From positions 1-24,320 of IMG/VR virus record IMGVR_UViG_3300006805_000157: 24,320 nt of DNA; one strand, 5' to 3'. Shown one piece after another: positions 3,448-21,093 of this stretch. This DNA comes from a virus. A program made the position numbers and the translations under genes. Under the pieces are notes generated by a model, which was not told where the DNA came from, searched no databases, and saw only the letters and a program-made list of their open reading frames with translations. Positions within the stretch are counted from its first letter, which is position 1, and the number at the start of each line of letters is the position of its first letter.

Positions 3448-3855
3448 ATGCTCACAAGAAGAAAGCAATCATTCATAGAGAACTACATAATAAACAAGAA
3501 CGCTACTAAATCAGCAGAATTGGCAGGATACTCATCAAGGACGGCATATAGTCAAGGGAGTAGGCTGTTAAAGAATGTTGAGGTTAAAGAGATAATAAAC
3601 AAGCGGTTTGAGGAGATAAGCAGGGGATTAGAGATAACAAGAGAACAGATTGAGCTAAATCTCTGGAAAGAAGCCAATAACGCCCAAAGAAGTGCAGATA
3701 GGATAGCCGCCAACCTTGCCTTAGCCAAGTTAAAGAACTATATTAAGGACAATACTAATACGCAAGTCGCTATATTTCAAGGACTTAACGAAAAAGACTT
3801 GCCGCCCATAGAAGCCCAAGCAGATGTTGACATAAGCCCAAAAGATATAGCGTAA
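3448..3855 (+). CDS. terS: Terminase small subunit
   Basis: A 135-residue protein beginning LTRRKQSFIENYIINK and continuing NATKSAELAGYSSRTAYSQG, the characteristic N-terminal helix-turn-helix of the Terminase_2/XtmA family (residues about 3-45). It recognises the packaging site on phage DNA. The middle (about 45-85) is the helical oligomerisation region. The C-terminal 40 residues are acidic and proline-containing, as expected for the segment that contacts the large subunit. Length is normal for the family (about 130-180). AAGGA (3434-3438) precedes the ATG. It lies upstream of the large subunit, separated by an unusual 308-base gap. Confidence 0.9.
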   Translation: MLTRRKQSFIENYIINKNATKSAELAGYSSRTAYSQGSRLLKNVEVKEIINKRFEEISRGLEITREQIELNLWKEANNAQRSADRIAANLALAKLKNYIKDNTNTQVAIFQGLNEKDLPPIEAQADVDISPKDIA

Positions 3856-4102: not shown

Positions 4103-4163
4103 TGTGTTTTAAGGCATACTGGAGGCTCTAATAGATAAAAAACAGGCACTTGCCTACTATAAG

Positions 4164-5558
4164 TTGTTTTCAGGCTCTTTTTTAGAGTATGTTAAATACT
4201 TCCATAAGGACTTTCTTACTTCTGCAATCCCCGATTTTCATCTTGAGATATATGATTTGCTCCCCAAGTCCCCAAGAATAGTCATAGCTTCACCCAGAGG
4301 ACACGGGAAAAGCACGATTTGTAGCGTATTTTACCCTATGTGGCTCTCTTTGTTCCAAAAGAGGCGTGATATTACCATTATCTCTGCTTCCGAGAGCTTA
4401 GCGATAGAGTGGTTAAGGAAGATAAAAAGAGAATTTGAGACAAACAAGAAGATTTTAGCCTTTTTCGGGGATTTAAAATCAGATAAGTGGACTGAAAATC
4501 ACATAATCCTTAAAAACGACAAAAGAGTAAACATAAGGGCAAGGGGAGCAGGGGGTCAGATTAGAGGTTTTAGACCTGACTGCCTGATAATGGATGACCT
4601 TGAGACAAACGAAAGTGTTGAAAGCGAAGAACAGCGTAAAAAACTTAAAGACTGGATATTCAAAGACTGTCTTAACACACTCTTACCGGAAGGACAGTTT
4701 GTTGTCATTGGAACTATTATACATCCGCTTTCTGTCCTTGCTGATTTACTGGTGGCGGACAATGGTTGGGTTCATAAGAAGTATCAGGCTTACATTGGGG
4801 GGAGACAGGAAGCAGGTAATGAGTTGTGGAGAGCGTTGTGGAGCCATGAGAAGTTACAGGAGAGGAAGAAAGAGATAGGCTCTTGGGCGTTTGCTTCGGA
4901 GTATATGAATGACCCCATAAGCGATGAAACCGCTCCTATCAAAGAACACCAGATTCGTTACTGGACAGAGTTTCCAAAGACATATTCAAGCGTTTTAGCG
5001 GTTGACCCAGCATATTCGGATGATGAGAAAGCCGACTTTAAAGTCGTGTCTCACATCGCAATAGACCAACAGATGAATCGCTACCTTGCTTCATACATAA
5101 GAACCCATAGTCCTATTGGTGAGTTTCAGGATGCCATTATTAACTTGTGGCTTCAGAACCGTTCCACCATTACGGCTATCGGGATACCTAATTCGGGGGT
5201 AGAGAAATCATTTTTTGACTCCTTCCTGAAAAAGTGCGAAGAAAGGAAGCTCTACCCTCCAGTTGTGGAGCTTAAAAATGCGTTTACGCAAACGGGAACG
5301 TCAATAAGTCAGCGGGGCAAAAAAGCCCGCTGCACCGCTGCTCTGCAACCGTTATTTGAACAGGGTAAATACTTTATCCACCCTGACCACATTGAGGCAA
5401 GGGATGAACTCCTGACAATGGGTTCGTCCCGCTGGGATGACCTTGTGGATACTATGGCTTATGCAGAACAAATTTTAGTTCCTGCTTTTCAGGAGGTAGT
5501 CGTAGAGCAGGATTACATTAGAGAACAAAAACATCACAGTAACTACGGAATGGAGTAA
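4164..5558 (+). CDS. terL: Terminase large subunit (packaging ATPase/nuclease)
   Basis: This is the motor that pumps DNA into the prohead and cuts it. Counting from the TTG at 4164 (464 residues), the Walker A region is SPRGHGKST (43-51) and Walker B is CLIMDDLE (140-147). The RNase H-like nuclease begins AVDPAYSDDEKAD (279-291), with D281 and D291 as likely metal ligands. The start is unclear. The frame stays open back to 4113 and the extra residues (EALIDKKQALAYYK) look like genuine family N-terminus, but there is no ATG. The strongest ribosome site, GGAGG at 4121-4125, points to ATA 4131, while CTG 4119 and TTG 4164 are alternatives. The true protein is probably 11-15 residues longer than listed. 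Confidence 0.93.
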   Translation: MFSGSFLEYVKYFHKDFLTSAIPDFHLEIYDLLPKSPRIVIASPRGHGKSTICSVFYPMWLSLFQKRRDITIISASESLAIEWLRKIKREFETNKKILAFFGDLKSDKWTENHIILKNDKRVNIRARGAGGQIRGFRPDCLIMDDLETNESVESEEQRKKLKDWIFKDCLNTLLPEGQFVVIGTIIHPLSVLADLLVADNGWVHKKYQAYIGGRQEAGNELWRALWSHEKLQERKKEIGSWAFASEYMNDPISDETAPIKEHQIRYWTEFPKTYSSVLAVDPAYSDDEKADFKVVSHIAIDQQMNRYLASYIRTHSPIGEFQDAIINLWLQNRSTITAIGIPNSGVEKSFFDSFLKKCEERKLYPPVVELKNAFTQTGTSISQRGKKARCTAALQPLFEQGKYFIHPDHIEARDELLTMGSSRWDDLVDTMAYAEQILVPAFQEVVVEQDYIREQKHHSNYGME

Positions 5559-5560
5559 GA

Positions 5561-6628
5561 GTGGCTAAGAAAGAAAAACCTACTAAAGACACGCTGGTTG
5601 AGTCAATTAAATCATTAGTTGACGAAGCCGTAAATCTAACTACCCAGTGGGAGTCTAATCAGGCAAAGTTCTCCCGTATGAGGTATCGCATCAAAAAAGA
5701 CAAGACCTTCCCATTTGTGGGCTGTGCTAACCTGCGTATGCCTACCATAGAGACTAACATCCGCAAAGTCAAGGCTGCGATAGTCAATGTTATCCACGGG
5801 ATTAGACCAGTTGTTCAGGTAGTTCCATCTCCGTCGGGGAACTGGGAGTCTGCTCTAAAGATAGAAAAGTTTTTAGACCATTTGATTATGGATAAGATTA
5901 AAGTAAAACCTAAGTCCGTGATAGGAATAGACCAAGCGTGTGAAAAGGGTTTCTACTTATTCAAGCCTTACTGGAAAACAGATATTATCACAAGGATTGA
6001 GAAACTCTCCATAGATGATTTGTCTATGGAAGAAGCTATGTTTATCTTTGATGTCAATACTCCCCCTGAAGCAATTAAGCAGGCAATCGCTCAGAAATAT
6101 GATGTGGATATGTCGCCGTTAGTGGCAAAAGATAACGAAGCGTCCTTAGATAAGATAATTGTAGCACTGCAAAAAGGCGATAAGAATATAGATGTTGAAT
6201 TTCAGGATGTGATTTGTAACTACCCTGATATAGCACTCTGCGAGCCAGAGAGAGTTTATGTCCCCACCGATTCAGGTTATCACCCCGATAGCTGTTCTTG
6301 GATTATCCACGAGTTTGATTTGCCAGTAGAAACATTGAGGGTTAACGCTAAGGTCAAGGGTTGGGATATAGGTGATATAGCAGACAAGGCGGTGGAGTTA
6401 AAGTCCAAACAAATTTCTATCAACGTTGGTTCTTCAAGGGATAAAGATATTGACTCCGATAAAGACGACAGGGAAGGGATAGATGTATTAGAGAAAACAG
6501 GCAAAGTAAGAATTTGGGAATATTATGGCTGGTATGATATTAACGGAGACGGTGCTGATGAGAAGTGTGTTATTACTCTCGCCCCAGATTTTGATAAGGT
6601 AATCAGAAAGATTGCCCTTCCGTTTTAA
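5561..6628 (+). CDS. Portal protein, N-terminal part, ending at in-frame TAA
   Basis: Starts at GTG 5561, two bases after the terminase stop. The product (355 residues) opens with a helical segment, then the portal-type sequence FSRMRYRIKKDKTFPFVGCAN (about 37-57), METNIRKVKAAIVNVIHG-like helices and PVVQVVPSPSG. This is the pattern of the large portal proteins of SU10-capsid phages, which form the twelve-subunit DNA entry ring at the capsid vertex. The protein ends abruptly at TAA 6626-6628 inside a conserved segment: before it lies KVIRKIALPF and directly after it, in the same frame, SGKFPFVKIFYELTDDRW. A full portal would be about 716 codons. Neighbouring genes also end in TAA, so the codon is not globally reassigned. 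Confidence 0.85.
   Translation: MAKKEKPTKDTLVESIKSLVDEAVNLTTQWESNQAKFSRMRYRIKKDKTFPFVGCANLRMPTIETNIRKVKAAIVNVIHGIRPVVQVVPSPSGNWESALKIEKFLDHLIMDKIKVKPKSVIGIDQACEKGFYLFKPYWKTDIITRIEKLSIDDLSMEEAMFIFDVNTPPEAIKQAIAQKYDVDMSPLVAKDNEASLDKIIVALQKGDKNIDVEFQDVICNYPDIALCEPERVYVPTDSGYHPDSCSWIIHEFDLPVETLRVNAKVKGWDIGDIADKAVELKSKQISINVGSSRDKDIDSDKDDREGIDVLEKTGKVRIWEYYGWYDINGDGADEKCVITLAPDFDKVIRKIALPF
6626..6628 (+). other. In-frame TAA interrupting the portal gene
   Basis: Codons run ctt-ccg-ttt-TAA-tcg-gga-aaa with no frame change. The frame remains open for 360 further codons to 7709 and encodes typical portal sequence. The two parts lie in the same frame with no insertion, intron-like sequence or new ribosome site at the junction. 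One substitution (TAA from TAT/TAC) would restore the gene, with Tyr a plausible residue here. It may be a nonsense mutation, a sequencing error or real readthrough. Confidence 0.9.
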
Positions 6629-6736
6629 TCGGGAAAATTTCCTTTCGTAAAGATATTCTACGAACTCACCGACGACAGATGGTTCTCTCATAGGGGTATC
6701 CCAGAAATTATAGAGGATATAGTCAAGGAAATAGAT

Positions 6737-7711
6737 ATGCAACACAATATGAAACTTGACTCCCAGACTATGAGAAATGCACCTATGTATATCTTCCGTG
6801 CTGGGATGATTAACAAGAACGCTATGCAGTTTGCTTGGGGTCAGGGTATTGCTGCACAGGGTATGCAACCACTAACCGATTTAATTGCTCCCCTTAACAA
6901 TAACAATCCTAATGTGGAGTTCTCCTATAAAGACGAACAGATGTTGTTAGAGACCAAGGTTCAGGAATTGCTTGGTCAGCCTGATTATACGCTTCAGTCA
7001 ATGATTAATAGGAGACAGCCCAGAACATTGGGCGAAGTCCAGATGCAGTCACAGGGTATGCAAAATATGTTTACTCTTGACGCTGATTTATTCCGTATGA
7101 GTTTTGAGGAATTATTTAACTGGATTTGGGACTTATGGTGCCAGTATGGCGACGAGGAATACACATTTGCTTATTTCGGCAAGAACGGATATGAACCCAT
7201 AAGAATGACTAAAGAAGAAACACAGGGTAAATATAAAATTACCATCCGTGGTAATGACCAGAATACAAATCCACAGTTGAGACTACAAAAAACACAGATG
7301 ATTATACAAATGCAATCTAATCCAGTTGCGTTACAGACAGGGGTTGTCAGCCCTATCAATCTTGCTAATGGTTACAAATTAGCATTACAGGAAATGGATA
7401 TACCGAATTGGGAAGAACTTGTTATGCCTCCAGAGATGATAGCACAGCAGATGCAGGCACAACAGCAACAGCCACAGGCACAGGATATTCGTATTAAACC
7501 TAAAGACTTAACTGACGCTGAAGTAGCCCAGATATTACAGAGCAAGGGTATAAGACCTGATGTTCAAGGCAGGGCGTTGAAGTCTGAGGCAATAGTTCAG
7601 GAAAAGAGAATTGACCAAGGGGCTAAAAAGATTGCTGGTTACAAAGACTTAGCCGAGATAGTCAATTCACTTGATGAACCTAACGAACCTAAAGCACCTA
7701 AAGGAGGGTAA
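6737..7711 (+). CDS. Portal protein, C-terminal part
   Basis: Continuation of the portal frame. The frame is open from 6629. The first ATG is at 6737, preceded by AAGGA (6726-6730), so separate initiation is possible and would give 324 residues. Codons 6629-6736 (SGKFPFVKIFYELTDDRW then HRGIPEIIEDIVKEID) are clearly portal too. The sequence continues with MRNAPMYIFRAG and SMINRRQPRTLGEVQ, the stem/clip region of large portals, then a long Gln-rich helical barrel-like tail (AQQMQAQQQQPQAQ, about 235-250). The C-terminus is basic then acidic. Without readthrough or reversion, the ring-forming wing/clip parts would be made as separate chains. The stop is followed directly by the next gene's start region. 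Confidence 0.85.
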   Translation: MQHNMKLDSQTMRNAPMYIFRAGMINKNAMQFAWGQGIAAQGMQPLTDLIAPLNNNNPNVEFSYKDEQMLLETKVQELLGQPDYTLQSMINRRQPRTLGEVQMQSQGMQNMFTLDADLFRMSFEELFNWIWDLWCQYGDEEYTFAYFGKNGYEPIRMTKEETQGKYKITIRGNDQNTNPQLRLQKTQMIIQMQSNPVALQTGVVSPINLANGYKLALQEMDIPNWEELVMPPEMIAQQMQAQQQQPQAQDIRIKPKDLTDAEVAQILQSKGIRPDVQGRALKSEAIVQEKRIDQGAKKIAGYKDLAEIVNSLDEPNEPKAPKGG

Positions 7712-7712
7712 C

Positions 7713-8069
7713 TTGGCGAGACCGAGAAAACACGCACCCGTAGTAAAGAATTATGCACCAGATATACAGGACAAGTTTATTAAACGGATTGCAGAGTGTC
7801 AGGAAGTTTTAGACCACTTAGATAAGTGTCCGGCGTGGAATGTTATCACAAGGGATTTAGAGAATTTCAAAAAATACATAGACGACAACTGGCAAAATAT
7901 CCCAGAGAGTGATAATCGGCTAAAAGAGTTAAGGGTTACAAAAATGGCGTATATGCACCTGTTAAACCTTAAAGATTCATATAAGGTTGACTTAGAAAAC
8001 GCCCAGAAAGAACTATATAAGATACAAAATCCAGAAAAAGTAATAAACAAGGATTACGACAATGCCTAA
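7713..8069 (+). CDS. Hypothetical helical protein in head module
   Basis: Start chosen at TTG 7713, because the strong AAGGAGGG site (7701-7708) lies just upstream; the longer ATG frame from 7671 would run inside the portal gene. The 118-residue product begins with a basic tail (ARPRKHAPVVKNYAP) followed by two or three long charged helices. It has no cysteine cluster or membrane segment. Its position between portal and scaffold in an uninterrupted head gene order suggests a minor head or assembly role, but I recognise no family. Its end overlaps the next start by eight bases. Confidence 0.75.
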   Translation: MARPRKHAPVVKNYAPDIQDKFIKRIAECQEVLDHLDKCPAWNVITRDLENFKKYIDDNWQNIPESDNRLKELRVTKMAYMHLLNLKDSYKVDLENAQKELYKIQNPEKVINKDYDNA

Positions 8070-8193
8070 AAAATTAGAGAATGTCCTTAAGAAACAAGCA
8101 AAGAAGATGGGATTACTTGGTGATAGGCGTGATGCTTATGTTTATGGCACTTTGCGTAAATCTGGCTGGAAGCCAAAACGGGAGCGTAAATAA
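8062..8193 (+). CDS. Very small conserved-looking head-module protein (43 aa)
   Basis: A 43-codon frame, ATG 8062 to TAA 8191-8193, overlapping the previous gene by eight bases. The product starts MPKKLENVLKKQAKKMGLLG and ends with DAYVYGTLRKSGWKP plus a basic tail. The pattern K-K-L-E-x-x-L-K-x-x-A-K-K-x-G-L-x-G-D-R-x-D-x-Y-V-Y-G-T-L-R-K-x-G-W-K-P is one I associate with tiny proteins recurring between portal and scaffold genes in phages of this type. It is strongly basic, with an amphipathic helix followed by a compact motif. Function unknown. An alternative frame in the same bases (from 8081) encodes a hydrophobic stretch. Confidence 0.75.
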   Translation: MPKKLENVLKKQAKKMGLLGDRRDAYVYGTLRKSGWKPKRERK

Positions 8194-8194
8194 C

Positions 8195-8614
8195 ATGGGA
8201 TTAGAAAAACCTATTGCAGATGCAGTTTTTGGAGAAGGAGCTAACCAGCCTATTGAAGTAAGAAAAATGATTGCTTCAACAATATTAAATAGAATCAATT
8301 CTGGGAGAACTTCTGAATTTGGTGGTGATATAGACACGGTTCTCAGAAAAGGTTACTACGCAGTTAGTAATCCGAATGTGCCTTATAAACAGGCTTACTC
8401 TGGTAAATTTCCAGACAAAGAAAGTGAGTTAAGGTATAAAGAAACATTGCAAATGGTGTCAGGATTACTTAAGGGAACAATCAAACCAGATGAGGGGTTA
8501 TTCTACTTTACCCCTAAGGAAATAAAGAAATTACAAAAAAATCCAAAGGCTTTTGATTTTAAAAAAGTAAAAGAAGTTGGTTCATCTGGAGGCTATAAAG
8601 TATTTACTTATTAG
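8195..8614 (+). CDS. SleB-like peptidoglycan (cell wall) hydrolase
   Basis: The product (139 residues from ATG 8195) begins MGLEKPIADAVFGEGANQP and continues with MIASTILNRINSG. This is the hallmark of the SleB/Hydrolase_2 family, with Glu14 in FGEGA as the likely catalytic acid. The Tyr/Phe-rich segment GLFYFTPKEI near residue 110 matches the family's late FYN/FF motif. Family members cleave the glycan strand of peptidoglycan. Placed between portal and scaffold it is more likely a virion-associated lysin or a helper in passing the wall than the endolysin, though either is possible. GGGAG (8179-8183) precedes this start. An in-frame ATG at 8081 would add a hydrophobic N-terminus. Confidence 0.75.
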   Translation: MGLEKPIADAVFGEGANQPIEVRKMIASTILNRINSGRTSEFGGDIDTVLRKGYYAVSNPNVPYKQAYSGKFPDKESELRYKETLQMVSGLLKGTIKPDEGLFYFTPKEIKKLQKNPKAFDFKKVKEVGSSGGYKVFTY

Positions 8615-8643
8615 ATTTTAGGGTTGTCTCTAAAACGCAATAG

Positions 8644-8656
8644 GGGGCGTTACCCC
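8644..8656 (+). promoter_or_regulatory. Small hairpin before the scaffold ribosome site
   Basis: GGGG (8644-8647), loop CGTTA, CCCC (8653-8656), ending two bases before the AGGAG (8658-8662) used by the scaffold gene at 8671. A competing pairing, AACGC (8634-8638) with GCGTT (8647-8651), would replace it. Structures this close to a ribosome site can set translation level or protect an mRNA end. This is a suggestion from pairing only. Confidence 0.3.
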
Positions 8657-8670
8657 GAGGAGAAAAACCA

Positions 8671-9555
8671 ATGGAAGAAACAAAAGAGGCTGTAAATCCT
8701 ACTGAATCAGCCCCAGTAGAAGAAACACAGGAAGTCGTTAATCAAGAGGCTCAACCGACTTCAGAGCCACAAGCCACTCAACCAGAGCAAGAAACCGCTC
8801 AAGCCCAACCTGCGGGTCAGCAGTCGTATGAAGCGGTTGATGAGTTTGGTGTTCCTTATAAAAACAGGACTTTTGAGTGGAAACGGAAATATGAGGAAAC
8901 TATTGATAAACTGCCTAATCTTATTGAGGAAGCGGTTAAGAGTAGTGTCCAGCAATACGGACAAGCACCGCAGAAGAAATACACGGTTGCGGAACTTGAA
9001 GCGTTTGCACAGCAAAGCCCAGAACACAGACCTTGGGTGGAAGAACAAAAAGCTCAGTTATTGCGTGAGCAGTTGACTAATGAGTTTGAACAAAAAATAA
9101 AATCTGTTGAAAGTCGGAAGGAAGCAGAAATCCGCAAACAACAGGCGTTCAACTATGTGGCTACTACTTACCCAGAGATTTTTGTTAAGAATCAACAAGG
9201 ACAGGTTTTGGGTATTAACAACCAAAGCCCTATGGCACAGCAAATTAACGTTCTTATGAACGACCCAAGATTTGCTAATGACCCAGAGGGTTTAATGGCT
9301 GCTGCTGATATTGCTTATGCAAGGGTTTCACGCAGTCAAATGGGGGTAAACCAGATGAAAGAGCAGAAACTCAAAGCAGAGGTAAAGCACTTACAAAAGC
9401 AGACATTGGTTGAGAGCGGTGCAAGGCAGGGGACACAAGCTGTTCCTGAATACCGTAAAGCCATTGATAGAGCAAAACAAACAGGTTCACTAAAGGATGT
9501 GCAAGCGGCATTGGCAGCTATGGCAAAAGCCAAGCGTGAGGCACAGAAAGAATAG
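8671..9555 (+). CDS. Capsid scaffolding protein
   Basis: A 294-residue protein lying immediately before the major capsid gene. Residues 1-52 are low-complexity, acidic and rich in Glu, Gln, Pro and Thr (EETQEVVNQEAQPTSEP). A conserved-looking aromatic segment EFGVPYKNRTFEWKRKY (about 58-74) follows. The remainder is largely helical with coiled-coil character and many Gln and Lys residues, ending in the lysine-rich AAMAKAKREAQKE. This composition and the position before a HK97-fold capsid gene are typical of scaffolds, which guide shell assembly and then leave. No protease gene is visible nearby. AGGAG precedes the ATG. Confidence 0.8.
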   Translation: MEETKEAVNPTESAPVEETQEVVNQEAQPTSEPQATQPEQETAQAQPAGQQSYEAVDEFGVPYKNRTFEWKRKYEETIDKLPNLIEEAVKSSVQQYGQAPQKKYTVAELEAFAQQSPEHRPWVEEQKAQLLREQLTNEFEQKIKSVESRKEAEIRKQQAFNYVATTYPEIFVKNQQGQVLGINNQSPMAQQINVLMNDPRFANDPEGLMAAADIAYARVSRSQMGVNQMKEQKLKAEVKHLQKQTLVESGARQGTQAVPEYRKAIDRAKQTGSLKDVQAALAAMAKAKREAQKE

Positions 9556-9557
9556 AA

Positions 9558-10463
9558 ATGGCATTAGGTTACGGAAATGTTTATGACAATATAGGCGGAG
9601 CAGTAAGGGAAGATTTACTTGATTTGTTAACCAATTTATCACCGAAACAAACACAGTTGGTTACAGGTCTTGGAACTTCTACTGCTAAGTCTATCAGACA
9701 TGAGTGGTTAGTTGATACACTTAACTCAGTAAAATTAAACGCACAGATTGAAGGTCAGTCTATTACATATCACAACCTTACCAATCCTGCCCGTTTAAGC
9801 AACTATACCCAGATATTCAAGCAAGGGTATAAAGTTGCGGATACTGAGAGAGCAGTTGATGAAGCTGGTTTTGAAGATAGATACAACTATGAAAAAACAA
9901 AGGCTTTGGCTCTCTTAAAGAATGATATGGAATACTCACTTGTTCGTGGTTCTTTAGCTTCTGGCTCAGGGACAGGTGCAAGACAGTTGAGGGGCATTAA
10001 GGCTTCACTTTCCTTAATTACTGCTCAATCTGGTGTTTCATTATCAGAGACCGCCCTTAATGATTACTTACAGTTGGTTTGGGATAACACCTCAACTGAG
10101 GTAAACGCCATATACTGCGATATGTATATGAAAAGGAAAATATCTGGTTTCACAGCTAATTCAACCAAGAATGTTAATGCAGATGACAGAAGGCTTGTCA
10201 ATGCGGTTGATGTTTATGAGGCTGATGCAGCAAAGATGGTTAAGTTATTCGCTCACAGATATGTTTCCATATCTGGAACTGATACTAACCATGGGTTATT
10301 CGGAATTAATGAAGATATGTTCAAGATTGCTTATCTTCGTAAACCGACAACTAAAGAAGAAGACGGCACTGGTGCAGATTATTCTGGTGGAAACATAATT
10401 ACCGAGTTGACACTTGAAAACGCTCACTACAATGCAGGATTCTGGGCTGACCAGCAACTTTAA
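9558..10463 (+). CDS. Major capsid protein, SU10/DUF5309 type
   Basis: A 301-residue shell protein. The N-terminal half carries the segment LGTSTAKSIRHEWLVDTL (about 38-55), then HNLTNPARLSNYTQIFKQ and an EYSLVRGSLASGSGTGARQL stretch (about 124-143). These are recognisable features of the DUF5309/SU10-like HK97-fold capsid family. The protein forms the icosahedral shell. There is no long N-terminal delta domain, consistent with a separate scaffold gene directly upstream (two-base gap). The ribosome site is weak (AGAAAG), so translational coupling to the scaffold may matter. The family is typical of podoviruses such as SU10 and many uncultivated relatives. Confidence 0.9.
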   Translation: MALGYGNVYDNIGGAVREDLLDLLTNLSPKQTQLVTGLGTSTAKSIRHEWLVDTLNSVKLNAQIEGQSITYHNLTNPARLSNYTQIFKQGYKVADTERAVDEAGFEDRYNYEKTKALALLKNDMEYSLVRGSLASGSGTGARQLRGIKASLSLITAQSGVSLSETALNDYLQLVWDNTSTEVNAIYCDMYMKRKISGFTANSTKNVNADDRRLVNAVDVYEADAAKMVKLFAHRYVSISGTDTNHGLFGINEDMFKIAYLRKPTTKEEDGTGADYSGGNIITELTLENAHYNAGFWADQQL

Positions 10464-10484
10464 ACTGGTAAGTCAAAGGGTTCG

Positions 10485-10931
10485 TTGGTTGTCCCACAAA
10501 ACAGCCAACATAAATTTATGGCTAAACTAACAAACGATTTTACTGGTCACAATCCACTTGAAAAAGGTAAATACAAAGAGATACGCAAGTTTATAAACTC
10601 TTGGCTTACCAATCAAACTGTTTATTGTAACAATTGTGGGCTTCCTTTTTATGGAGAGAAATGTTGTGACAACCCAGAGATAGGAAAAAACTTTGACCAT
10701 TGTTGGGCGGTGATAGTCCAGAACAAAGCAAGGCAGAAAATTAGTGCTAATGATTTTGCTTCTAATGAGACAAGGACTATGCGTTTGGGATTAAGTATGC
10801 CAGTTAGCTTATTACAAGCCCTTGAGAGGTTTTGTAAAGAAACCATGGGGCAGAAGCTCTTTGTCAACCAGAAGGATTTAAGGGAATTTGCGAAAGCGTT
10901 TCCTATGTTCGCTATCATGGAGAGAATATGA
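10485..10931 (+). CDS. Cysteine-containing hypothetical protein downstream of capsid gene
   Basis: A 148-residue protein starting at TTG 10485 with AAAGGG just upstream; an ATG at 10518 is an alternative that keeps all main features. Residues 48-73 contain C48-N-N-C51, C60-C61 and H72-C73 (VYCNNCGLPFYGEKCC then DHCWAV), a likely zinc-binding knuckle. The second half is a helical domain (SMPVSLLQALERFCKETMG). Placement right after the capsid gene suggests a head accessory or DNA-associated role, but no family is recognised. Its stop overlaps the first gene of the glycan cassette (ATGA), so the cassette is fused translationally onto the head genes. Confidence 0.75.
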   Translation: MVVPQNSQHKFMAKLTNDFTGHNPLEKGKYKEIRKFINSWLTNQTVYCNNCGLPFYGEKCCDNPEIGKNFDHCWAVIVQNKARQKISANDFASNETRTMRLGLSMPVSLLQALERFCKETMGQKLFVNQKDLREFAKAFPMFAIMERI

Positions 10932-13759
10932 CACTAACGCTACAAGTAATTGCCAAAGATGAAATTAAAGACGTAACAAGGATAATTAAAGATTACATAG
11001 AATACTTTGACAAGATACAGATAGCCTATGATTGCGATAATATAGGGGATTTAGGTAGTCATCCCAAGGTGGATTTGTTTAAGTATGAATGGAAAGATGA
11101 CTTTGCTCATAAAAGGAATTGGCTTGCAGATAAATGCACAACTGATTACTACTTCACCATAGACACTGATGATACAATTATTAACCCTCAACTTGTCAGA
11201 CAAGTTGCACAAGAAGCTAACGATAAGAACCTAAATGTTGTTTATGGTTATTATCTTTATGGTTTTGATGCTGACGGTAATTGTTGTGCGGCACACTGGA
11301 AAGAAAGAATTATAAAGAATACCAGTAATTTACGTTGGAATAAGAAGATACACGAAAATTTAATTCCTCTTTCTACTGTGGGTCATAATTTTGAGTTAGA
11401 CGAAAGATTGACAGTCAAACATAATTCTACCCATGAAGATATAGTCAGGAAAAGTGAACGCAATCTTAAATATTTGCTCGCTGAATACAACCAAGACAAA
11501 GAAAAGACTGACCCAAGAACCATAGCCTATCTTGGGAGAATGTTTTTTGCAAGGGGTGATTTTAAGAAATCAATATATTTTCTTGAGAAACATATTGCCT
11601 TATCTGGTTGGGATGAGGACAGATATCTTTCTTGGTGTCAGTTAGCAGATATATATAGATTACAGAAAGACTATAAGCAGGCGATAGCCTGTAGTTTTGA
11701 GGCTTTAGCAGAAAGACCAGATTATCCCGATGCTTATTTAGCTTTGTTTTGGGCTTATTTTGACCAAGAACAATGGTTAAAGGCAATAGAGTGGTGCGAA
11801 TATGGTCTTAGAAAACCAACACCTAAAACCTTTATCATTACCGACCCATCAAGTTATACATGGCGACCTTCTTTAGCCCTTTCTTATGCTTATTGGAATA
11901 TAGGAGAATACGACAAGGCGATGGGGTTGTTCAATTTCTCCAAGAAATTAGCCCCTTCAGTTCCTTTTATAAAACAAAACGAACACATTTATAAGGAAGC
12001 ACTTGATAGGAAAAATTATATAGACAATTTGTTGCCTGTATTAAACTTTACGAAAGATAACAAGGGGAATATGGAAGCCTTAGCGAATAGTATTCCTCCC
12101 AACATGTTTGAGAACCAAACAATAGCCATGATTAGGAACAAGTATCTTGAACCTAAGAAATGGTCAAGGAAGTCAATAGTAATATACTGCGGAGAAACAC
12201 CTAACGCATGGTCTCCTGATTCAACCAAGGGTGGGATAGGTGGTTCGGAAGAAGCGGTAATACACATGGCTAACGAATTTACTGGTTTAGGTTATGAAGT
12301 AACTGTTTATAATACCTGCGAAAAAGAAGGTAATTACAGGGGAGTAGAATATTTAAGTTCTGTAAGATTTAACCCAAGGGACGAGTTCAATGTAATTATA
12401 TCTTGGAGAACAAATGTATTTGCTTACAGGGTGCAAGGAGTAAGAAAAATAGTTTGGCTTCATGATTTACCAAATTCAGCAAGCTTAACGGAAGAAACTT
12501 GTAGGTTCTTTGACAAAATAGTAGTTCTTTCTAAATACCATAAATCTCTCTTACCGAGTTTTGTTCCAGAAGAAAAGATTTATGTTTCTACGAACGGTAT
12601 AAATCCAAATGACTTTCTTGGATTAGAAGGAATAAAAAGAGAACCACATAGAATAATTTATGCCTCAAGTTATGATAGGGGCATTGAATTAATATTGAAC
12701 AACTGGAAAGAGATAAGAGAAACTATAACAGATGCGGAGTTACATCTTTATTACGGGTTTGATACTTATATAAGTTATGTAAAGAAAGGGTTACTAAAGG
12801 ATGACGGATGGATGGCACAAATGCAAAGATTGCTTTCCCAAGAGGGGGTATTTGACCATGGGAGAGTGGGGCATAATGAACTTGCGAAGGAATATGCAAA
12901 GGCTTCTATATTTGCTTACCCTTGCTCGTATGCAGGTGAAATTAACTGTATTGCTCTTACTAAGGCTATTGCCTGTGGTTGTTTCCCACTTACCAACGAT
13001 TTTGCGGTTCTTCCTGAAAGAAATACGCACGGTAGGGTGGTCAAGAATGAAAAATTTATCCCAGCTCTTATTGCTTTGCTTAGACACGGTGACACGAAAA
13101 TCAACAATGAGGGTTATATTGAACAAAACTCTTGGAAGAAAGTAGCTGAGGATTGGGAACAAAATATATTTTCCTCTGATATAGAAATAGAGTTTAAGAA
13201 TAGGGGACAATGGTTTTTTGGTCAATTAAATCCAAACGATAAGATAGTTGATATAGGTTCTAACGATGGACACTGCTTTTTTGATTATCCACATAGGGAA
13301 AATATAACTTATGTTGATATAGATGAATTTGATATACCAAATTTTGTCCAAGCAAGTGCAGAAAACCTGCCCTTTGAGAACAAGAAGTTTGATGTAGCGT
13401 GTTTGTTTGAAATATTAGAGCATCTTGATAATCCAATCAAGGCTTTGTCTGAGGCGAGGAGGGTTGCTGAGAAAACACTTATTACTGTTCCCTATGAATA
13501 TGAATGGGCTGACGACATGCAACCTTTTTGGACTATTAAAGAAAAGCAGCGTTGGTCAGGTAAGGATTTTGAAGAAGAAATTAAAAGAGAAAATCATGCT
13601 AAAAGTTATCATGCTGATACTTTTGAACACTTATTCCATAAAACTTTTTACACTCCAGAATTATTAAAAGACCACTTAACTCAAGCTGGATTTACGGAGA
13701 TTAAGATTACTAAATTAAGATTTGGTAGGTGGACATGGCTTTCAGCAATATGCAAATAG
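10928..13759 (+). CDS. Multidomain glycosyltransferase-TPR-glycosyltransferase-methyltransferase
   Basis: A 943-residue fusion. Residues 1-165: GT-A family 2 glycosyltransferase, with FTIDTDD (D79-x-D81-D82) as the metal/nucleotide-sugar motif and a basic HWKERI segment. Residues about 175-370: helical TPR-like repeats (DYKQAIACSFEALAERPDYP), a scaffold for protein or glycan contacts. Residues about 415-745: GT-B family-4-like domain opening SIVIYCGETPNAWSPD and GGIGGSEEAV (435-444), ending around the HGRVGHNELAKEYAKASIF and Gly-rich nucleotide-binding region. Residues about 755-943: class I SAM methyltransferase with VDIGSNDGH (about 773-781) and FEILEHLDNPI. The fused activities suggest that one polypeptide makes and caps a disaccharide-like unit. 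No signal peptide or membrane segment, so it is cytoplasmic. It is the first gene of the cassette. Confidence 0.85.
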   Translation: MTLTLQVIAKDEIKDVTRIIKDYIEYFDKIQIAYDCDNIGDLGSHPKVDLFKYEWKDDFAHKRNWLADKCTTDYYFTIDTDDTIINPQLVRQVAQEANDKNLNVVYGYYLYGFDADGNCCAAHWKERIIKNTSNLRWNKKIHENLIPLSTVGHNFELDERLTVKHNSTHEDIVRKSERNLKYLLAEYNQDKEKTDPRTIAYLGRMFFARGDFKKSIYFLEKHIALSGWDEDRYLSWCQLADIYRLQKDYKQAIACSFEALAERPDYPDAYLALFWAYFDQEQWLKAIEWCEYGLRKPTPKTFIITDPSSYTWRPSLALSYAYWNIGEYDKAMGLFNFSKKLAPSVPFIKQNEHIYKEALDRKNYIDNLLPVLNFTKDNKGNMEALANSIPPNMFENQTIAMIRNKYLEPKKWSRKSIVIYCGETPNAWSPDSTKGGIGGSEEAVIHMANEFTGLGYEVTVYNTCEKEGNYRGVEYLSSVRFNPRDEFNVIISWRTNVFAYRVQGVRKIVWLHDLPNSASLTEETCRFFDKIVVLSKYHKSLLPSFVPEEKIYVSTNGINPNDFLGLEGIKREPHRIIYASSYDRGIELILNNWKEIRETITDAELHLYYGFDTYISYVKKGLLKDDGWMAQMQRLLSQEGVFDHGRVGHNELAKEYAKASIFAYPCSYAGEINCIALTKAIACGCFPLTNDFAVLPERNTHGRVVKNEKFIPALIALLRHGDTKINNEGYIEQNSWKKVAEDWEQNIFSSDIEIEFKNRGQWFFGQLNPNDKIVDIGSNDGHCFFDYPHRENITYVDIDEFDIPNFVQASAENLPFENKKFDVACLFEILEHLDNPIKALSEARRVAEKTLITVPYEYEWADDMQPFWTIKEKQRWSGKDFEEEIKRENHAKSYHADTFEHLFHKTFYTPELLKDHLTQAGFTEIKITKLRFGRWTWLSAICK

Positions 13760-14373
13760 GGGCTTTAATAAGAAGCTACGGATTAACAGACCATCTTGAC
13801 GCCGTTTTAAAAAGTTACTCTTGGGTAAATAAGATACTTATTATGAATTATAGATTTAAGGATGTTTCGCCAAGAGAAGATAAAACAATAATTATATCTG
13901 AAAAATACCCTAATACATATATTAGGTCTGGTGAGAACCTTAATCAACATGAAGTTTATAATTTGGGGCTTGAGGATTTTAAGGGATTTGATTGTGTGTT
14001 TATTGCGGATAACGATGAATTAATATCACCACAAGACCAAAAGAAGGTTATAGAAACATTGAGGGGGAATAATGGTGTAGTAGGCACATTAGTTGAGTAT
14101 GCACGTGACTACGAACACATTTATCCCATTAGGGGTCATAAACCAATTATAGCGGTTCATCCTGATACAAGGTTTTATGAAGTCAGGTGTGCCGGTGGCT
14201 CAAATAAACAATCTGATGTATTTGTTCATCATTTCGGTTATGTCTATAAAGATGAGGATTTAGATTGGAAGCTCAGCTGGGAAAGAAAGTGGGAGGGGGA
14301 TAATATAAACAATATTATTTGTCAACTTCCCCAAAGATATGAAATGCCCGAAGAAATAAGGAATATGCTTTGA
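13750..14373 (+). CDS. GT-A-like glycosyltransferase, paralogue of the gene at 20017
   Basis: A 207-residue protein from ATG 13750, preferred over GTG 13729 or ATG 13735 because MQIGALIRSYG aligns with the start MRIGAFIKSYH of the paralogue at 20017. Shared features along both proteins: NKILIMNYRF/DKIVVLNYRF, NLNQHEVYN/GLNQAQIHN, and the DxD site DCVFIADNDELISPQDQ / DLAWVADADEIILPKDQ. The site would bind a metal and a nucleotide sugar. The copy here ends without the cytidylyltransferase domain that the paralogue carries. It overlaps its neighbours by 10 and 4 bases. The acceptor is unknown. Confidence 0.75.
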   Translation: MQIGALIRSYGLTDHLDAVLKSYSWVNKILIMNYRFKDVSPREDKTIIISEKYPNTYIRSGENLNQHEVYNLGLEDFKGFDCVFIADNDELISPQDQKKVIETLRGNNGVVGTLVEYARDYEHIYPIRGHKPIIAVHPDTRFYEVRCAGGSNKQSDVFVHHFGYVYKDEDLDWKLSWERKWEGDNINNIICQLPQRYEMPEEIRNML

Positions 14374-15194
14374 TAGAAATACCAAAATCATACAACTATA
14401 TTTCAGCATTTTTGACTTTCGCTTGTAACTTTAGGTGCCATTATTGTATTAATAAATACAATGGGTTGTATAAATACAAGTCTATGCTAGCGTCAGAATG
14501 GGTTAAGGGATTGAATAGGATACACACGAGGGAAGATTTACCAATTACCGTAACTGGCGGTGAACCAACAGTCCATCCTGATTTTTTTATAATAGTAAAG
14601 AATGTGCGTAAACATTTGGATTTATTGACTAATGGAAGGTTTAAAACAGAAGATTTTTTGAGAATAGTTGAGGTAGATAGATTTAAGCGTAATGCTAAAT
14701 ATTCATCAATTAGATTTTCTTACCACCCTAACTACACAAACATTATCAAACTTGTTAGGAAAGTTTATAGACTTAAAAGAGAAGGTTATTCGGTTGGGAT
14801 ATGGGGTGTAGGTAATACATTGGGGAATAAGATAGTAAAGGGGTTGTGTTCGTTCTTTGGCATAGATTTCAGATTAAAAGAATTTCTTGATAAAACACAT
14901 GGAACCTACAAATATCCTAAAGCTGTGGATGGGATACCAAAGAAATGTTTATGCAAGCCATCTGAGCTTCTTATTGCACCAGACGGGAGATTGTTTAAGT
15001 GTCACTATGACCTATACCATGGGGTTAATTCTTATGGACATTTATTGGATGATAAAGTTAAACTTCCAAAAGATTTTTTACCCTGCGATAATTACGGACT
15101 ATGTAACCCCTGTGATATCAAGTCAAAGTTTGACCGTTTCCAGAGAACTGGTCATTGTTCTGTAACCATAAAGGAGGAAAATGGACAGGTATAA
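14370..15194 (+). CDS. Radical SAM protein with SPASM/Twitch-like C-terminus
   Basis: A 274-residue protein starting at TTG 14370 (AAGGA upstream). C19-x3-C23-x2-C26 in FACNFRCHYC binds the 4Fe-4S cluster that cleaves S-adenosylmethionine, and VTGGEPTVHPD (about 65-75) is the family GGEP motif. The C-terminal third holds CKPSELLIAPDGRLFKC (C-x10-G-x4-C), then CDNYGLCNPC, an auxiliary-cluster arrangement of the SPASM/Twitch type. Such enzymes modify peptides or carbohydrates through radical chemistry. With glycosyltransferases on both sides and no precursor peptide visible, sugar modification is the likelier reading, but it is inference. It overlaps the second radical SAM gene by 14 bases. Confidence 0.8.
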   Translation: MIEIPKSYNYISAFLTFACNFRCHYCINKYNGLYKYKSMLASEWVKGLNRIHTREDLPITVTGGEPTVHPDFFIIVKNVRKHLDLLTNGRFKTEDFLRIVEVDRFKRNAKYSSIRFSYHPNYTNIIKLVRKVYRLKREGYSVGIWGVGNTLGNKIVKGLCSFFGIDFRLKEFLDKTHGTYKYPKAVDGIPKKCLCKPSELLIAPDGRLFKCHYDLYHGVNSYGHLLDDKVKLPKDFLPCDNYGLCNPCDIKSKFDRFQRTGHCSVTIKEENGQV

Positions 15195-16248
15195 CTACGA
15201 TGGGACTAAACTTCTTTGGCACATGGATAGAATTATAGAACACTTTGATAAGGGTAAGAGGATTGCACCTATCCATATAGATATGGGTGCTACTGCAACA
15301 TGTAACTCCGACTGTGTTTATTGCTATGCTAAACATCAAGGGCATAAGGGAGAGATATTAGACAGGATAGTATTTCTTAATCTCATGAAAGAAGCACCCG
15401 CATGTGGGGTAAGGTCAATAGCAATAATAGGGGATGGAGAACCCACACTAAATCCAGCATTGTATGAGGCGGTGGCGGTAGGCAAAGAGAATGGATTAGA
15501 TTTAAGCGTAGGGACTAATGGTATAGCACTTACTCCAGAAAAAATAGATACTCTTTTGAAAAACTGTGTGTGGCTAAGATTCAACCTTTCTGCTGGGACA
15601 AGAGGGGGGTATAGATTTGTTCACGGGAAAGATAATTGGGATAGAGTAACCAATAATATCAAAGATGCGGTCAGGATAAAAAGAGAGAAAGGATACGCCT
15701 GCACGATAGGATTACAGATGGTGCTTGTCCCCCAATGTCTAAGAGAGGTTATCCCTGAAGCCAAGTTTGCGGTAAACACAGGCGTAGATTATATGGTGGT
15801 CAAGCAGTATTCCGACCCCATTTGTTCTGATATGGCTCAAGTTGATAGGGATTGGTATAAAACCAAGGAAACACAAAGTATTCTAAAGACTGCTGAGAGT
15901 ATGTCAACCGAAAAAACTCAGATAATAATTAAGTGGGGGTTAATGCAGTTTCATGACAATAAGTTAAACAAGCATTGTTTAGATTTACCAGTTTTAATAG
16001 AAATGTCCGGAACAGGTAAACTTTATCCTTGCGGTTATCATTTTAGAAACCATCGTTATGAATTTGGAGATTTGAATAAACAAAGTTTTAGGGAAATAAT
16101 AGAAAGTGATAACTACTGGAAAATTATTAAATATATGCGTGAAGAATTTGAAGTAGGTAAATCTTGCCATGGTGCGTGTAGGCATGACCGAACTAACGAA
16201 TTTATTTGGAACTATTTACATAAACCGGAACACATAAATTTTATATGA
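15181..16248 (+). CDS. Second radical SAM protein with auxiliary cysteine cluster
   Basis: A 355-residue protein with an ideal AAAGGAGG ribosome site before ATG 15181. C41-x3-C45-x2-C48 lies in TATCNSDCVYCYAKHQ. GDGEPTLNP (about 90-98) replaces the usual GGEP and is followed by GTNGIALTPEKID. The C-terminal part has CLDLPVLIEMSGTGKLYPC (C-x12-G-x4-C), GDLNKQSFREIIESDNYW and CHGAC, again SPASM/Twitch-like and resembling enzymes that store an auxiliary Fe-S cluster. Two different radical SAM proteins side by side imply two radical steps or a heteromeric system acting on the same substrate. The role is likely modification of a sugar, lipid or protein linked to the neighbouring transferases; the substrate is unknown. 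Confidence 0.8.
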   Translation: MDRYNYDGTKLLWHMDRIIEHFDKGKRIAPIHIDMGATATCNSDCVYCYAKHQGHKGEILDRIVFLNLMKEAPACGVRSIAIIGDGEPTLNPALYEAVAVGKENGLDLSVGTNGIALTPEKIDTLLKNCVWLRFNLSAGTRGGYRFVHGKDNWDRVTNNIKDAVRIKREKGYACTIGLQMVLVPQCLREVIPEAKFAVNTGVDYMVVKQYSDPICSDMAQVDRDWYKTKETQSILKTAESMSTEKTQIIIKWGLMQFHDNKLNKHCLDLPVLIEMSGTGKLYPCGYHFRNHRYEFGDLNKQSFREIIESDNYWKIIKYMREEFEVGKSCHGACRHDRTNEFIWNYLHKPEHINFI

Positions 16249-16652
16249 GCAGACCACCATTCACTTATACTTTTGGAGAAGTTGTAGATAAATTAAGCAT
16301 TGTCTCAAAAAAGGAACAATTTGGACTTCAGGGGGCAAGACAGGAATTAGATAACTTTATGAAATGGTTGAATGATATTGGAGTGGATGCTTATCTCATT
16401 CTTTCAATTATCAGGGTTACAGAAGCCAATATGTCTATATGGAACTTAGAACATGAGCTAAGAAATGCCAAGGAAGGTGATATACCCTTAGACAAAGTTG
16501 GAAGAATAGCAATTAAAGTCCGTGAACACAATAAATCCCGTGTTAGATATATGAATGAACTTGATTCACTCTGTGGGGCAGAGCATATTACGGAAAAAGT
16601 AAAGCACCTATCAGAAGATATTTATGACAAGTTCTATAAAAGAAAAAATTAA
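16245..16652 (+). CDS. Hypothetical protein resembling DUF6165-type glycan-cluster proteins
   Basis: A 135-residue soluble, helical protein. The N-terminal FTYTFGEVVDKLSIVSKKEQF (about 6-26) resembles the GELIDKLTILEIK-like opening of small proteins I associate with DUF6165 and polysaccharide biosynthesis loci. I cannot confirm the match from sequence alone. It then has helices with many charged residues, an internal GDIPLDKVGR loop and a C-terminal EDIYDKFYKRKN tail. No catalytic motif is visible. It starts by a 4-base overlap with the radical SAM gene and overlaps the transketolase gene by 29 bases, so it belongs to the same operon. Confidence 0.6.
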   Translation: MSRPPFTYTFGEVVDKLSIVSKKEQFGLQGARQELDNFMKWLNDIGVDAYLILSIIRVTEANMSIWNLEHELRNAKEGDIPLDKVGRIAIKVREHNKSRVRYMNELDSLCGAEHITEKVKHLSEDIYDKFYKRKN

Positions 16653-17280
16653 CTTATTGAGAAGCGAAATAATGAGAGGAGCTTGTGAAAAAAAGATGGG
16701 GCATATTGCTCCCTCGCTCTCGTGTGTGGATATATTAGCTGTTCTTTCTTATTACCCAGAGTTTGAAAAAGATACAATTTATCTATCAAAGGGGCATGGT
16801 TGTTATGGACTCTATGTCATAAGGGGCAAGTGGGGGTTAGGTTGCTTAGAGGGATTTGGGTCTTTAGGACATGGCTTGCCTATTGCAGTAGGTAATGCTT
16901 TCGGCAGAAAACTACAAAAAAAGTCAGGACATATCTTCTGTATAGTTGGTGATGGAGAAATGCAGGAAGGTTCAATGTGGGAGTCTTTGAACTTTATGCA
17001 GCACCATAAATTAAACAACATTACAGTCATAGTGGATAACAACGGTTTACAGGCTATGGATAGAGTTGAGAATGTTCTTTCCCATAATTTGACCAATAGG
17101 TTAGAAGCATGGGGGTTAGAAACTTGGGTTTGCGACGGACATAATGCAGATAAGCTTCATTATATACTTAAATTTAAACCACAAGTATTGGTAGCCAACA
17201 CCATTAAGGGGAATGGTTATCCTTTTATGGAGGGTGTAGCAAAATGGCACTTTAGGGTTCCGCATGACGACCAGAGATAA
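16624..17280 (+). CDS. Mini-transketolase, thiamine-diphosphate (PP) half
   Basis: A 218-residue protein. MGHIAPSLSCVDILAVL (25-41), LSKGHG (54-59), GSLGHGLPIAVGNAFG (79-94) and the TPP motif GDGEMQEGSMWESLN running to VDNN (G109-D-G111 ... N139-N140) are transketolase N-terminal signatures. The half binds the Mg-diphosphate end of the cofactor. It is shorter than the usual 270-300 residues: the segment between the KGH motif and the GSLGHG motif is compressed. The partner half is the next gene, 17 bases overlapping. Such split enzymes move two-carbon units between sugars or related molecules. In this cassette the pair probably supplies an unusual sugar or ketol unit, which is inferred. Confidence 0.85.
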   Translation: MTSSIKEKINLLRSEIMRGACEKKMGHIAPSLSCVDILAVLSYYPEFEKDTIYLSKGHGCYGLYVIRGKWGLGCLEGFGSLGHGLPIAVGNAFGRKLQKKSGHIFCIVGDGEMQEGSMWESLNFMQHHKLNNITVIVDNNGLQAMDRVENVLSHNLTNRLEAWGLETWVCDGHNADKLHYILKFKPQVLVANTIKGNGYPFMEGVAKWHFRVPHDDQR

Positions 17281-17716
17281 TGTTATAGAAAAGTTAATCC
17301 CATATTTTAACGACCCAAGATATATTTTATTGGTTTGTGATATGGGTTTTGGAAAAATTGATAGATTGAGAGAGGTATATCCTAACAGAATTGTCAACTG
17401 CGGGATAATGGAACAGGCGACGGTGGGTATTGCGTCTGGGTTAGCAGAGAGTGGTCTTATCCCCATTGTCTATTCCATAGCCTCATTCTTAGTTTTTAGG
17501 GCGTTAGAACAGATTAGAAACGATATAGTTTTGAGAAATAAAAACGTAAAGCTGATTGGTAATGGTTCTGGTGATTATTTTAAAGCAATGGGGGCTTGTC
17601 ATTGTTGTGGACAAGACGATTTAAGACTAATGGACATAATCGGTTTAGAGTGTTATGACGGCAATGAATTTGAAGAATGGATTAATTCAAGCGAAGCGGG
17701 GTATATTAGGTTATGA
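17264..17716 (+). CDS. Mini-transketolase, pyrimidine-binding half lacking the C-terminal domain
   Basis: A 150-residue protein. VNCGIMEQATVGIASGLAE (44-62) is the pyrimidine-domain signature; Glu50 in CGIMEQ is the conserved residue that activates thiamine diphosphate. YSIASFLVFRALEQIRNDI (70-88) and LIGNGSGDYF are further family segments. Usual partner subunits run to about 300 residues because of a C-terminal domain that helps bind phosphate. Here the frame ends after the pyrimidine domain in GYIRL, so that domain is absent. The extra CHCC near residue 112 is unusual and could bind a metal. The pair 16624/17264 forms a very small transketolase. Confidence 0.8.
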   Translation: MTTRDNVIEKLIPYFNDPRYILLVCDMGFGKIDRLREVYPNRIVNCGIMEQATVGIASGLAESGLIPIVYSIASFLVFRALEQIRNDIVLRNKNVKLIGNGSGDYFKAMGACHCCGQDDLRLMDIIGLECYDGNEFEEWINSSEAGYIRL

Positions 17717-18921
17717 CGAGGGAGATACAAAAAAGATTATTTAGGGTAGAGAACGCCAGAAAAATTCTACTTGAAGTAAAAAACATATTAGATAGGAATG
17801 ATGTTGAGTTCTTTCTCATAAGTGGAACACTTTTAGGTGCTATAAGAGGCAAAGATATTTTACATCATGATTTTGACATAGACCTTGGTGCTAAACATGA
17901 GATATTACTACCCAAATTAGAGCAATTATATCAACAATTTACCGATGCTGGGTTTAAATGTTATTTAAGATATACTCCATATCCATACGCAAGGTTTATA
18001 AAGATATCTAAAGACAATATACAGGTTGACATTTTAGATTATAAACAAAATGGAAACGATAGGTTTCATTTAATGAGATTCAACAGGGGTTGTTGGGTTT
18101 ACCCAAAAGAGATATTTGATAATCTTGGTGAGATTGATTTTCTCGGTGCTAAATTTAAAATCCCTAATCCAGTAGAAAAATATCTTGAACTTAGTTATAC
18201 AGTAAGTTGGACAGTGGAAGATAAGGAATGGAATTGGCAAAATGCACCTTGTTTGAAATGGGACTACGCTGATTTTATGAGAAAAAGAGATGACCTGATA
18301 ACTCCGGTGCATTTATCTACTAAGAGAGACTATAAGGGGCGTATGGATAACAATAAGGTGGAATGTGCAAGAATAGCGAGAAAATTTGACTATAACTTTT
18401 TTGATGGTGAAAGAAAATTTGGCTATGGTGGATATAAGGATGATGGAAGATGCAAAAGCCTTGCAGAAAAGATTATAAGGATATACGGGTTAGACTCCAG
18501 CAGTAGGGTGTTGGATATAGGTTGTGGGAAGGGTTATTTATTGAACGAGATTAAAAAGCAATGTGATTGCGATGTAACCGGTTATGATATATCGCAATAT
18601 GCTGTTGATAATTGTGTTGTAGAAAATAAATTCCACTTTGTAGCTGGAGAATATACCATATCTGAAAACTTTGACCTTATTATTTCTATAAATACACTTC
18701 ACAATCTAATACTTCCAAAATTAAAACAAGCAATTGAACAGATAAAAGAACACTCTAAGCAGCAATATATTTGTGTTGAAAGTTATAGAAATGAACAGGA
18801 ACTTCATAATTTACAATGTTGGGCATTGACTTGTGAACAATTTTTGAGACCAGAGGAGTGGGAATTCTTATTTAAAGAATGGGGGTATAAAGGTGATTAC
18901 GAATTCATCTTCTTTGAATAA
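17713..18921 (+). CDS. LicD-like phosphotransferase fused to SAM methyltransferase
   Basis: A 402-residue protein of two parts. Residues about 1-210 are LicD-like: FLISGTLLGAIRGKDILHHDFDIDLGA (residues 34-60), with acidic residues D53, D55 and D57 as likely metal ligands. The nucleotidyltransferase-fold LicD/fukutin family transfers phospho-alcohols such as phosphocholine or phosphoribitol from CDP donors onto glycans. Residues about 225-402: class I methyltransferase with FDGERKFGYGGYKDDGR, then VLDIGCGKGYL (about 266-276) and INTLHNLILP. The operon also encodes a cytidylyltransferase domain (gene at 20017), which could make the CDP donor. Both neighbours overlap (4 and 29 bases). Confidence 0.75.
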   Translation: MTREIQKRLFRVENARKILLEVKNILDRNDVEFFLISGTLLGAIRGKDILHHDFDIDLGAKHEILLPKLEQLYQQFTDAGFKCYLRYTPYPYARFIKISKDNIQVDILDYKQNGNDRFHLMRFNRGCWVYPKEIFDNLGEIDFLGAKFKIPNPVEKYLELSYTVSWTVEDKEWNWQNAPCLKWDYADFMRKRDDLITPVHLSTKRDYKGRMDNNKVECARIARKFDYNFFDGERKFGYGGYKDDGRCKSLAEKIIRIYGLDSSSRVLDIGCGKGYLLNEIKKQCDCDVTGYDISQYAVDNCVVENKFHFVAGEYTISENFDLIISINTLHNLILPKLKQAIEQIKEHSKQQYICVESYRNEQELHNLQCWALTCEQFLRPEEWEFLFKEWGYKGDYEFIFFE

Positions 18922-19396: not shown

Positions 19397-20039
19397 ACCA
19401 GAGCGTATTCAGGAAATGTTAGCGAGTTATGATAGGACTAAAAGTCCATGGAACGACATGGTTATCTATGTGGCTGATGATGACCCAAGACTGGAAGATT
19501 ATAAAAGTGTTCTTTCTAATAGGAATCTTGTAATTGGAAAACGCAGAACATACGCAGAAGTAAATAATTATTGTATGTGTGAACTTTATCCAGATTATCC
19601 CTATTACTCTGAAATTGGAGATGACCATGTCTATCATACCGATAGGTGGGATGAAAAATTAGTAAACGAAATAGAGAGTCATGGTGGTTGGGGATTTGCT
19701 TGTGGAAATATGGGGAATTCACTTCCGTCTGGTATGGTTACATCAGCTAACGTAATTAAGGCTTTGGGGTATTATATAACTCCGATATTAAAACAAGCTT
19801 ATGTTGATAACTTCCACCAAGAATTAGGTGAAGCATGTGGAATGTTATACAGGGTAAACGGGGTGGACATAGAACATAAACATTGGATATTCGGTAAAGC
19901 ACCGCCAGATGAGAATTATGCTGCTGTAACAAATGCAGACAATATGCGGGAGAGTTTGCAACTGTTTAACGAATGGAAGGATAAATATAAACAAAGAGAT
20001 GTGGAGAAAATACTAAATGCGTATCGGGGCGTTCATTAA
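19362..20039 (+). CDS. Small GT-A-like glycosyltransferase
   Basis: A 225-residue protein starting at TTG 19362 after TAGGAG. It opens with a beta-alpha-beta fold (KLLTVCPSRIRPERIQEML) and then IYVADDDPRLEDY (35-47). The segment SEIGDDHVYHTDRWDEKL (about 84-101) carries a DDH/DxD-like acidic site for metal and nucleotide sugar, as in family-2 type transferases. The later part (RVNGVDIEHKHWIFGKAPPDENY, residues about 164-186) looks like a substrate-binding lid with histidines. The acceptor is unknown. It overlaps the epimerase-like gene by 35 bases and the next gene by 23. Confidence 0.65.
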   Translation: MKLLTVCPSRIRPERIQEMLASYDRTKSPWNDMVIYVADDDPRLEDYKSVLSNRNLVIGKRRTYAEVNNYCMCELYPDYPYYSEIGDDHVYHTDRWDEKLVNEIESHGGWGFACGNMGNSLPSGMVTSANVIKALGYYITPILKQAYVDNFHQELGEACGMLYRVNGVDIEHKHWIFGKAPPDENYAAVTNADNMRESLQLFNEWKDKYKQRDVEKILNAYRGVH

Positions 20040-21093
20040 ATCTTATCATTCAACACAGCATTTACTTTTAGTCCTTGAGCAATACAGATGGGTGGACAAG
20101 ATTGTTGTTCTTAATTATAGATTTAACTCGGTTGAGCCTACGACTGATAACACAAGAGAGATTTGCAGGATGTTTGCACACCCAAACCTTATTTGCGAAA
20201 GCGGTGTAGGGTTAAACCAAGCACAAATACATAATCGTGGGATAGAATTGTTAAGGGACTGTGATTTGGCGTGGGTAGCTGATGCCGATGAAATAATTTT
20301 ACCCAAAGACCAACAAATAATACTTAGCGAGGTTAGGGGAAATGGTTGGGCTGCTTGTTGCAGGATAGTTGATTATAATGGTGACTTATACCATGCTATG
20401 CCTGATAGGGGTTATAGCGTAGTGATGGTTTCTCCTAAACATGAGTTTGCAAAGTTTGTTACTTTGAGATGCTTACATCCAAGCTATAACCAGCACAAGA
20501 TACCTAACGCAACTATGCACCACTTGAGCCTTGTATTCCCTAAGGATGTTATCCACTGGAAGGCTGGGTGGGAGTGTAAAGAAGAAGGACAGAGTAAAGA
20601 TAGTTTAATTGATGCTTGGAAGTTCAAGCGAGAAGTAACCCCCCCTCCGGAACTTGTTAGTTTAGTTAACGAAAAGAGCAAAATAGTTTACGCAACCGGA
20701 TGCTTTGATTTATTCCACTATGGACATTTGCAGTATTTAGAAAAAGCGAAGAATTATGGGGATAAATTGTTGGTTGGGGTGAACACCGATGAAACAATAA
20801 GGAAATACAAGGGTTATTCTCCAGTAATTCCCTTTGAACAAAGATTTAGAGTTATAAGCTCTCTTAAATGCGTGGATTATGTTGTAACCCAAGAAGATGG
20901 AGACCCATCAAGCACGCTAAAAAAATTATATGATAAGGGAATGAATATAACGGCGTTTGTTAGGGCTGATGGTAAAAACTGGGGTTCAAATGTGGTGGAG
21001 AATAATGGTGGCAGGGTGGTAAAGATACCACATTACCATGAAATTTCTTCAACAGAGATAAAGAACAAGATATTAAAAGAATGGAAGGGCTAA
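20017..21093 (+). CDS. Glycosyltransferase-cytidylyltransferase fusion
   Basis: A 358-residue protein. Residues 1-210 are a GT-A-like domain paralogous to the gene at 13750, with the DxD site in DLAWVADADEI (D89-x-D91). Residues about 221-358 form a cytidylyltransferase: TGCFDLFHYGHLQYLEKAK with the HxGH motif HYGH, then RFRVISSLKCVDYV, and the closing ISSTEIKNKI. Both are signatures of the glycerol-3-phosphate/ethanolamine/heptose cytidylyl- or adenylyltransferase group. It activates a phosphorylated alcohol as a CDP (or ADP) derivative. With the LicD-like gene at 17713 this suggests a CDP-alditol pathway in the same operon. GGAGA precedes the ATG. The stop abuts the next start with no gap. 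Confidence 0.8.
   Translation: MRIGAFIKSYHSTQHLLLVLEQYRWVDKIVVLNYRFNSVEPTTDNTREICRMFAHPNLICESGVGLNQAQIHNRGIELLRDCDLAWVADADEIILPKDQQIILSEVRGNGWAACCRIVDYNGDLYHAMPDRGYSVVMVSPKHEFAKFVTLRCLHPSYNQHKIPNATMHHLSLVFPKDVIHWKAGWECKEEGQSKDSLIDAWKFKREVTPPPELVSLVNEKSKIVYATGCFDLFHYGHLQYLEKAKNYGDKLLVGVNTDETIRKYKGYSPVIPFEQRFRVISSLKCVDYVVTQEDGDPSSTLKKLYDKGMNITAFVRADGKNWGSNVVENNGGRVVKIPHYHEISSTEIKNKILKEWKG

Follow-up and report, generated by a model that had tools for sequence, protein, structure and literature searches.

An in-frame stop codon in an SU10-type portal gene, private to one metagenomic record, is most likely a one-base error

How can the gene for an essential virion protein contain a stop codon in the middle of an otherwise continuous reading frame? 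The question is raised by the portal gene in a 24,320-nucleotide stretch of viral DNA (IMG/VR record IMGVR_UViG_3300006805_000157), referred to here in its entirety as the window. The relevant features of the gene are the following:

5561..7711, + strand: SU10-type portal gene, 717 codons including the final stop, interrupted by one in-frame TAA
6626..6628, + strand: the in-frame TAA, codon 356 of the frame; the near-identical contig L036 differs from the window at only two bases, of which 6628 is one
6737..6739, + strand: in-frame ATG (Met393) at which a second chain was proposed to start; of 31 distinct relatives, only 9 have Met here

The original prediction held that TAA 6626-6628 interrupts the portal gene in frame, and translation of 5561-7711 bears this out: codon 356 is the single internal stop, and the final TAA lies at 7709-7711. 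Two open reading frames (5561-6628, 355 aa; and 6737-7711, 324 aa, with an ATG start) share one frame. Downstream of the TAA, 360 codons are open, an outcome with a chance of about 2e-11 at the local base composition, and over this stretch each of the five alternative frames contains 13 to 35 stops; the open frame beyond the TAA is therefore not accidental.

As was also claimed, the frame stays in register with portal-typical sequence on both sides of the stop. The two halves match the Pfam profile PF23899 (SU10_portal) consecutively, the first at profile positions 2-300 and the second at positions 350-581. The first half scores 56.6 bits against a curated cut-off of 30, whereas the second half alone (24.9 bits, E 8e-6) falls below the cut-off, yet matches the correct part of the profile. 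Like the portal of SU10 (a Kuravirus; PF23899 / phrog_1216), the window portal thus aligns in its halves to successive parts of one profile; the sole difference is the in-frame TAA, which is absent from every aligned relative. The assignment to the SU10 type combines the profile match of the first half with an adjoining terminase gene and a nearby SU10-type capsid gene. The surroundings of the portal gene, with a major capsid gene and an adaptor gene of the SU10 type, are consistent with a short-tailed, SU10-like phage:

3448-3855: small terminase subunit
4164..5558, + strand: large terminase subunit, immediately preceding the portal gene; its homologous part is intact
9558..10463, + strand: SU10-type major capsid protein, intact
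21094-21741: SU10-type adaptor

The first ATG, GTG or TTG of the large terminase frame is TTG 4164, and similarity to the terminase of one relative reaches upstream of it to about 4131 (4131-4163). The gene may accordingly begin at a rarer type of start codon, or the match over 4131-4163 may be a chance extension. In one related locus (L012, 1618-4044) the large terminase, 809 aa in length, has a LAGLIDADG homing endonuclease domain (Pfam Hom_end) in its first half and thus probably contains an intein, an insert that the terminase of the window lacks.

The nearest relative of the window is the contig L036 (IMG/VR record IMGVR_UViG_3300025896_002214; the same contig as L002), which is 9741 bases long and aligns without gaps to window positions 4313-14053. 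Only two of the 9741 bases differ, at 6628 and 12728. The difference at 6628 creates the window's stop; L036 has a sense codon at 6626-6628, and its portal (read on L002) is one uninterrupted frame of 716 aa. Position 12728 falls within a 943-aa glycosyltransferase/methyltransferase gene, where the window encodes Thr, L036 encodes Ala, and more distant relatives encode Pro or Ser, a pattern that, as far as these sequences go, gives no indication of which contig is derived. When viral contigs were scanned with the exact flanks of the site and any base allowed at 6628, L036 alone was found, in a collection that may omit the window's own record.

More distant relatives agree with L036. The comparison with near relatives, which the original prediction had proposed as a check, began from a scan of viral contigs that recovered 34 relatives, L036 nearest among them; a scan with the capsid added further loci. 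Apart from L036, all loci of the first scan (33, at 52-85% protein identity) likewise have a sense codon at 6626-6628, and every one of the 41 relatives besides L036 that align across the site is open through it, although the number of independent records is slightly below 41 (L034/L041 and L035/L037 are overlapping stretches of two records). The column at codon 356 is varied among 31 distinct rows: Tyr in 16, Asp in 9, Phe in 3, and Asn, Ser and Glu in one each. An apparent internal TAA within the match of G001, the record of L035, was rejected because L035 has an open 716-codon frame (4956-7103) ending just before the end of the match; by its coordinates this TAA is the natural end stop. No match came from 50,697 phage records searched at the DNA level or from bacterial and archaeal genomes scanned for the pattern of a nearby stretch, and a protein search with the second portal half returned only three distant portals, at 33% identity.

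Since neither L036 nor any relative checked has the stop at 6626-6628, it is almost certainly either an error in one base or an isolated broken variant, not a new way of making the protein, and it almost certainly has no function. Between the two, error is the more probable source. The TAA would then be a one-base difference private to the window record in an SU10-type portal gene that is otherwise intact, with base 6628 introduced by a sequencing, consensus or assembly error, and the phage population would probably carry the uninterrupted gene and make a normal portal of 716 residues. Private nonsense errors or variants in other metagenome-assembled viral contigs likewise involve one base in a single record, with a near-identical intact copy in the same public collection, and at the level of contig sequences no difference from them was found.

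Considerably less likely, though the strongest of the alternatives, is that a defective or minority genome carries a real nonsense mutation. The portal would end at residue 355 and be non-functional. In SU10, according to the paper on its virion structure (PMC9509320), genome packaging runs through a dodecameric portal. A truncated portal would therefore not be expected to function. A genome of this kind would persist only where intact phage co-infects, in the form of dead particles, or briefly. The near-identical intact contig would be its source population, and true variation between strains could account for the difference at 12728: the window and L036 may be real sister strains instead of two assemblies of one strain, in which case the base at 6628 could likewise be a real variant. 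Against this, assembly usually reports the majority base, a lethal allele is expected to be rare, and the allele occurs in no relative.

The state of the remaining genes was assessed by comparing relatives' open frames of at least 150 codons with the window. The genes for which relatives exist, and which the comparison covers, occupy roughly 3.4-13.8 kb and parts of 17.6-24 kb. Away from gene ends, the stop at 6626 is the sole one to fall within a match, and 41 of 41 relatives support it. Other stops sit near natural gene ends, each in one to three relatives, and none of the window genes compared requires a frame change relative to any relative. No second internal stop has the backing of many relatives, and the frames are kept throughout the genes compared, so the genome is not decaying.

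The original prediction listed sequencing error, a defective variant, readthrough and a two-chain portal as the options; the first two still stand, and the last two have found no support. If the stop were suppressed or read through, a full-length portal, perhaps alongside the short form, would be made from a downstream frame that is indeed open and conserved. This is very improbable. The stop is kept in none of the 41 relatives, unlike a programmed readthrough site, and the near-identical contig has a sense codon in its place. The base following TAA 6626-6628 is T, and a stop followed by T is a strong termination context in E. coli. Nor does the window resemble a stop-codon-recoded phage: TAA terminates 14 of its 26 probable genes, so the earlier exclusion of global TAA recoding holds, and ARAGORN found no tRNA gene within the 24-kb window, which is possibly only part of the genome. 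The variation at codon 356 also differs from the single residue that a fixed suppressor would explain. That the stop is real and suppressed in the strain's own host, with readthrough giving a reduced level of portal, is even harder to credit. A literature search on the stop itself yielded nothing useful. A real, read-through stop would be an unusual suppressed TAA in an essential virion gene, for which these data offer no support.

A two-chain portal, composed of residues 1-355 and a second chain from ATG 6737, is already contradicted and scarcely credible. In its favour is an AAGGA located 7 bases upstream of this ATG, but those bases belong to conserved Lys-Glu codons, which the protein requires in any case. 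Against it, 22 of the 31 distinct relatives have Ile, Thr or Val in place of Met393, L036 contains this ATG too although its portal frame has no internal stop, and the 36 residues that would be lost (357-392) rank 8th for conservation among 680 stretches of that length, with a mean identity to the window portal of 86% as against 56% for the whole protein.

The case is of value mainly as a warning. When one metagenome contig shows an isolated in-frame stop in an essential gene, near-identical contigs should be consulted before anything else; in the present case doing so dispels the puzzle.

Two further features of the window were observed. In the interval from the capsid gene to the adaptor gene, non-virion genes form a cassette (10928-18921 and 20017-21093) that resembles an island for the modification of sugars or glycans. 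It includes the 943-aa protein, a TPR/glycosyltransferase/methyltransferase fusion, as well as two radical SAM proteins, half of a transketolase/DXP-synthase-like TPP enzyme, a methyltransferase, and a cytidylyltransferase. At the window's left end (1-189) there are 27-base tandem repeats, at least six units in number, which are open in frame.
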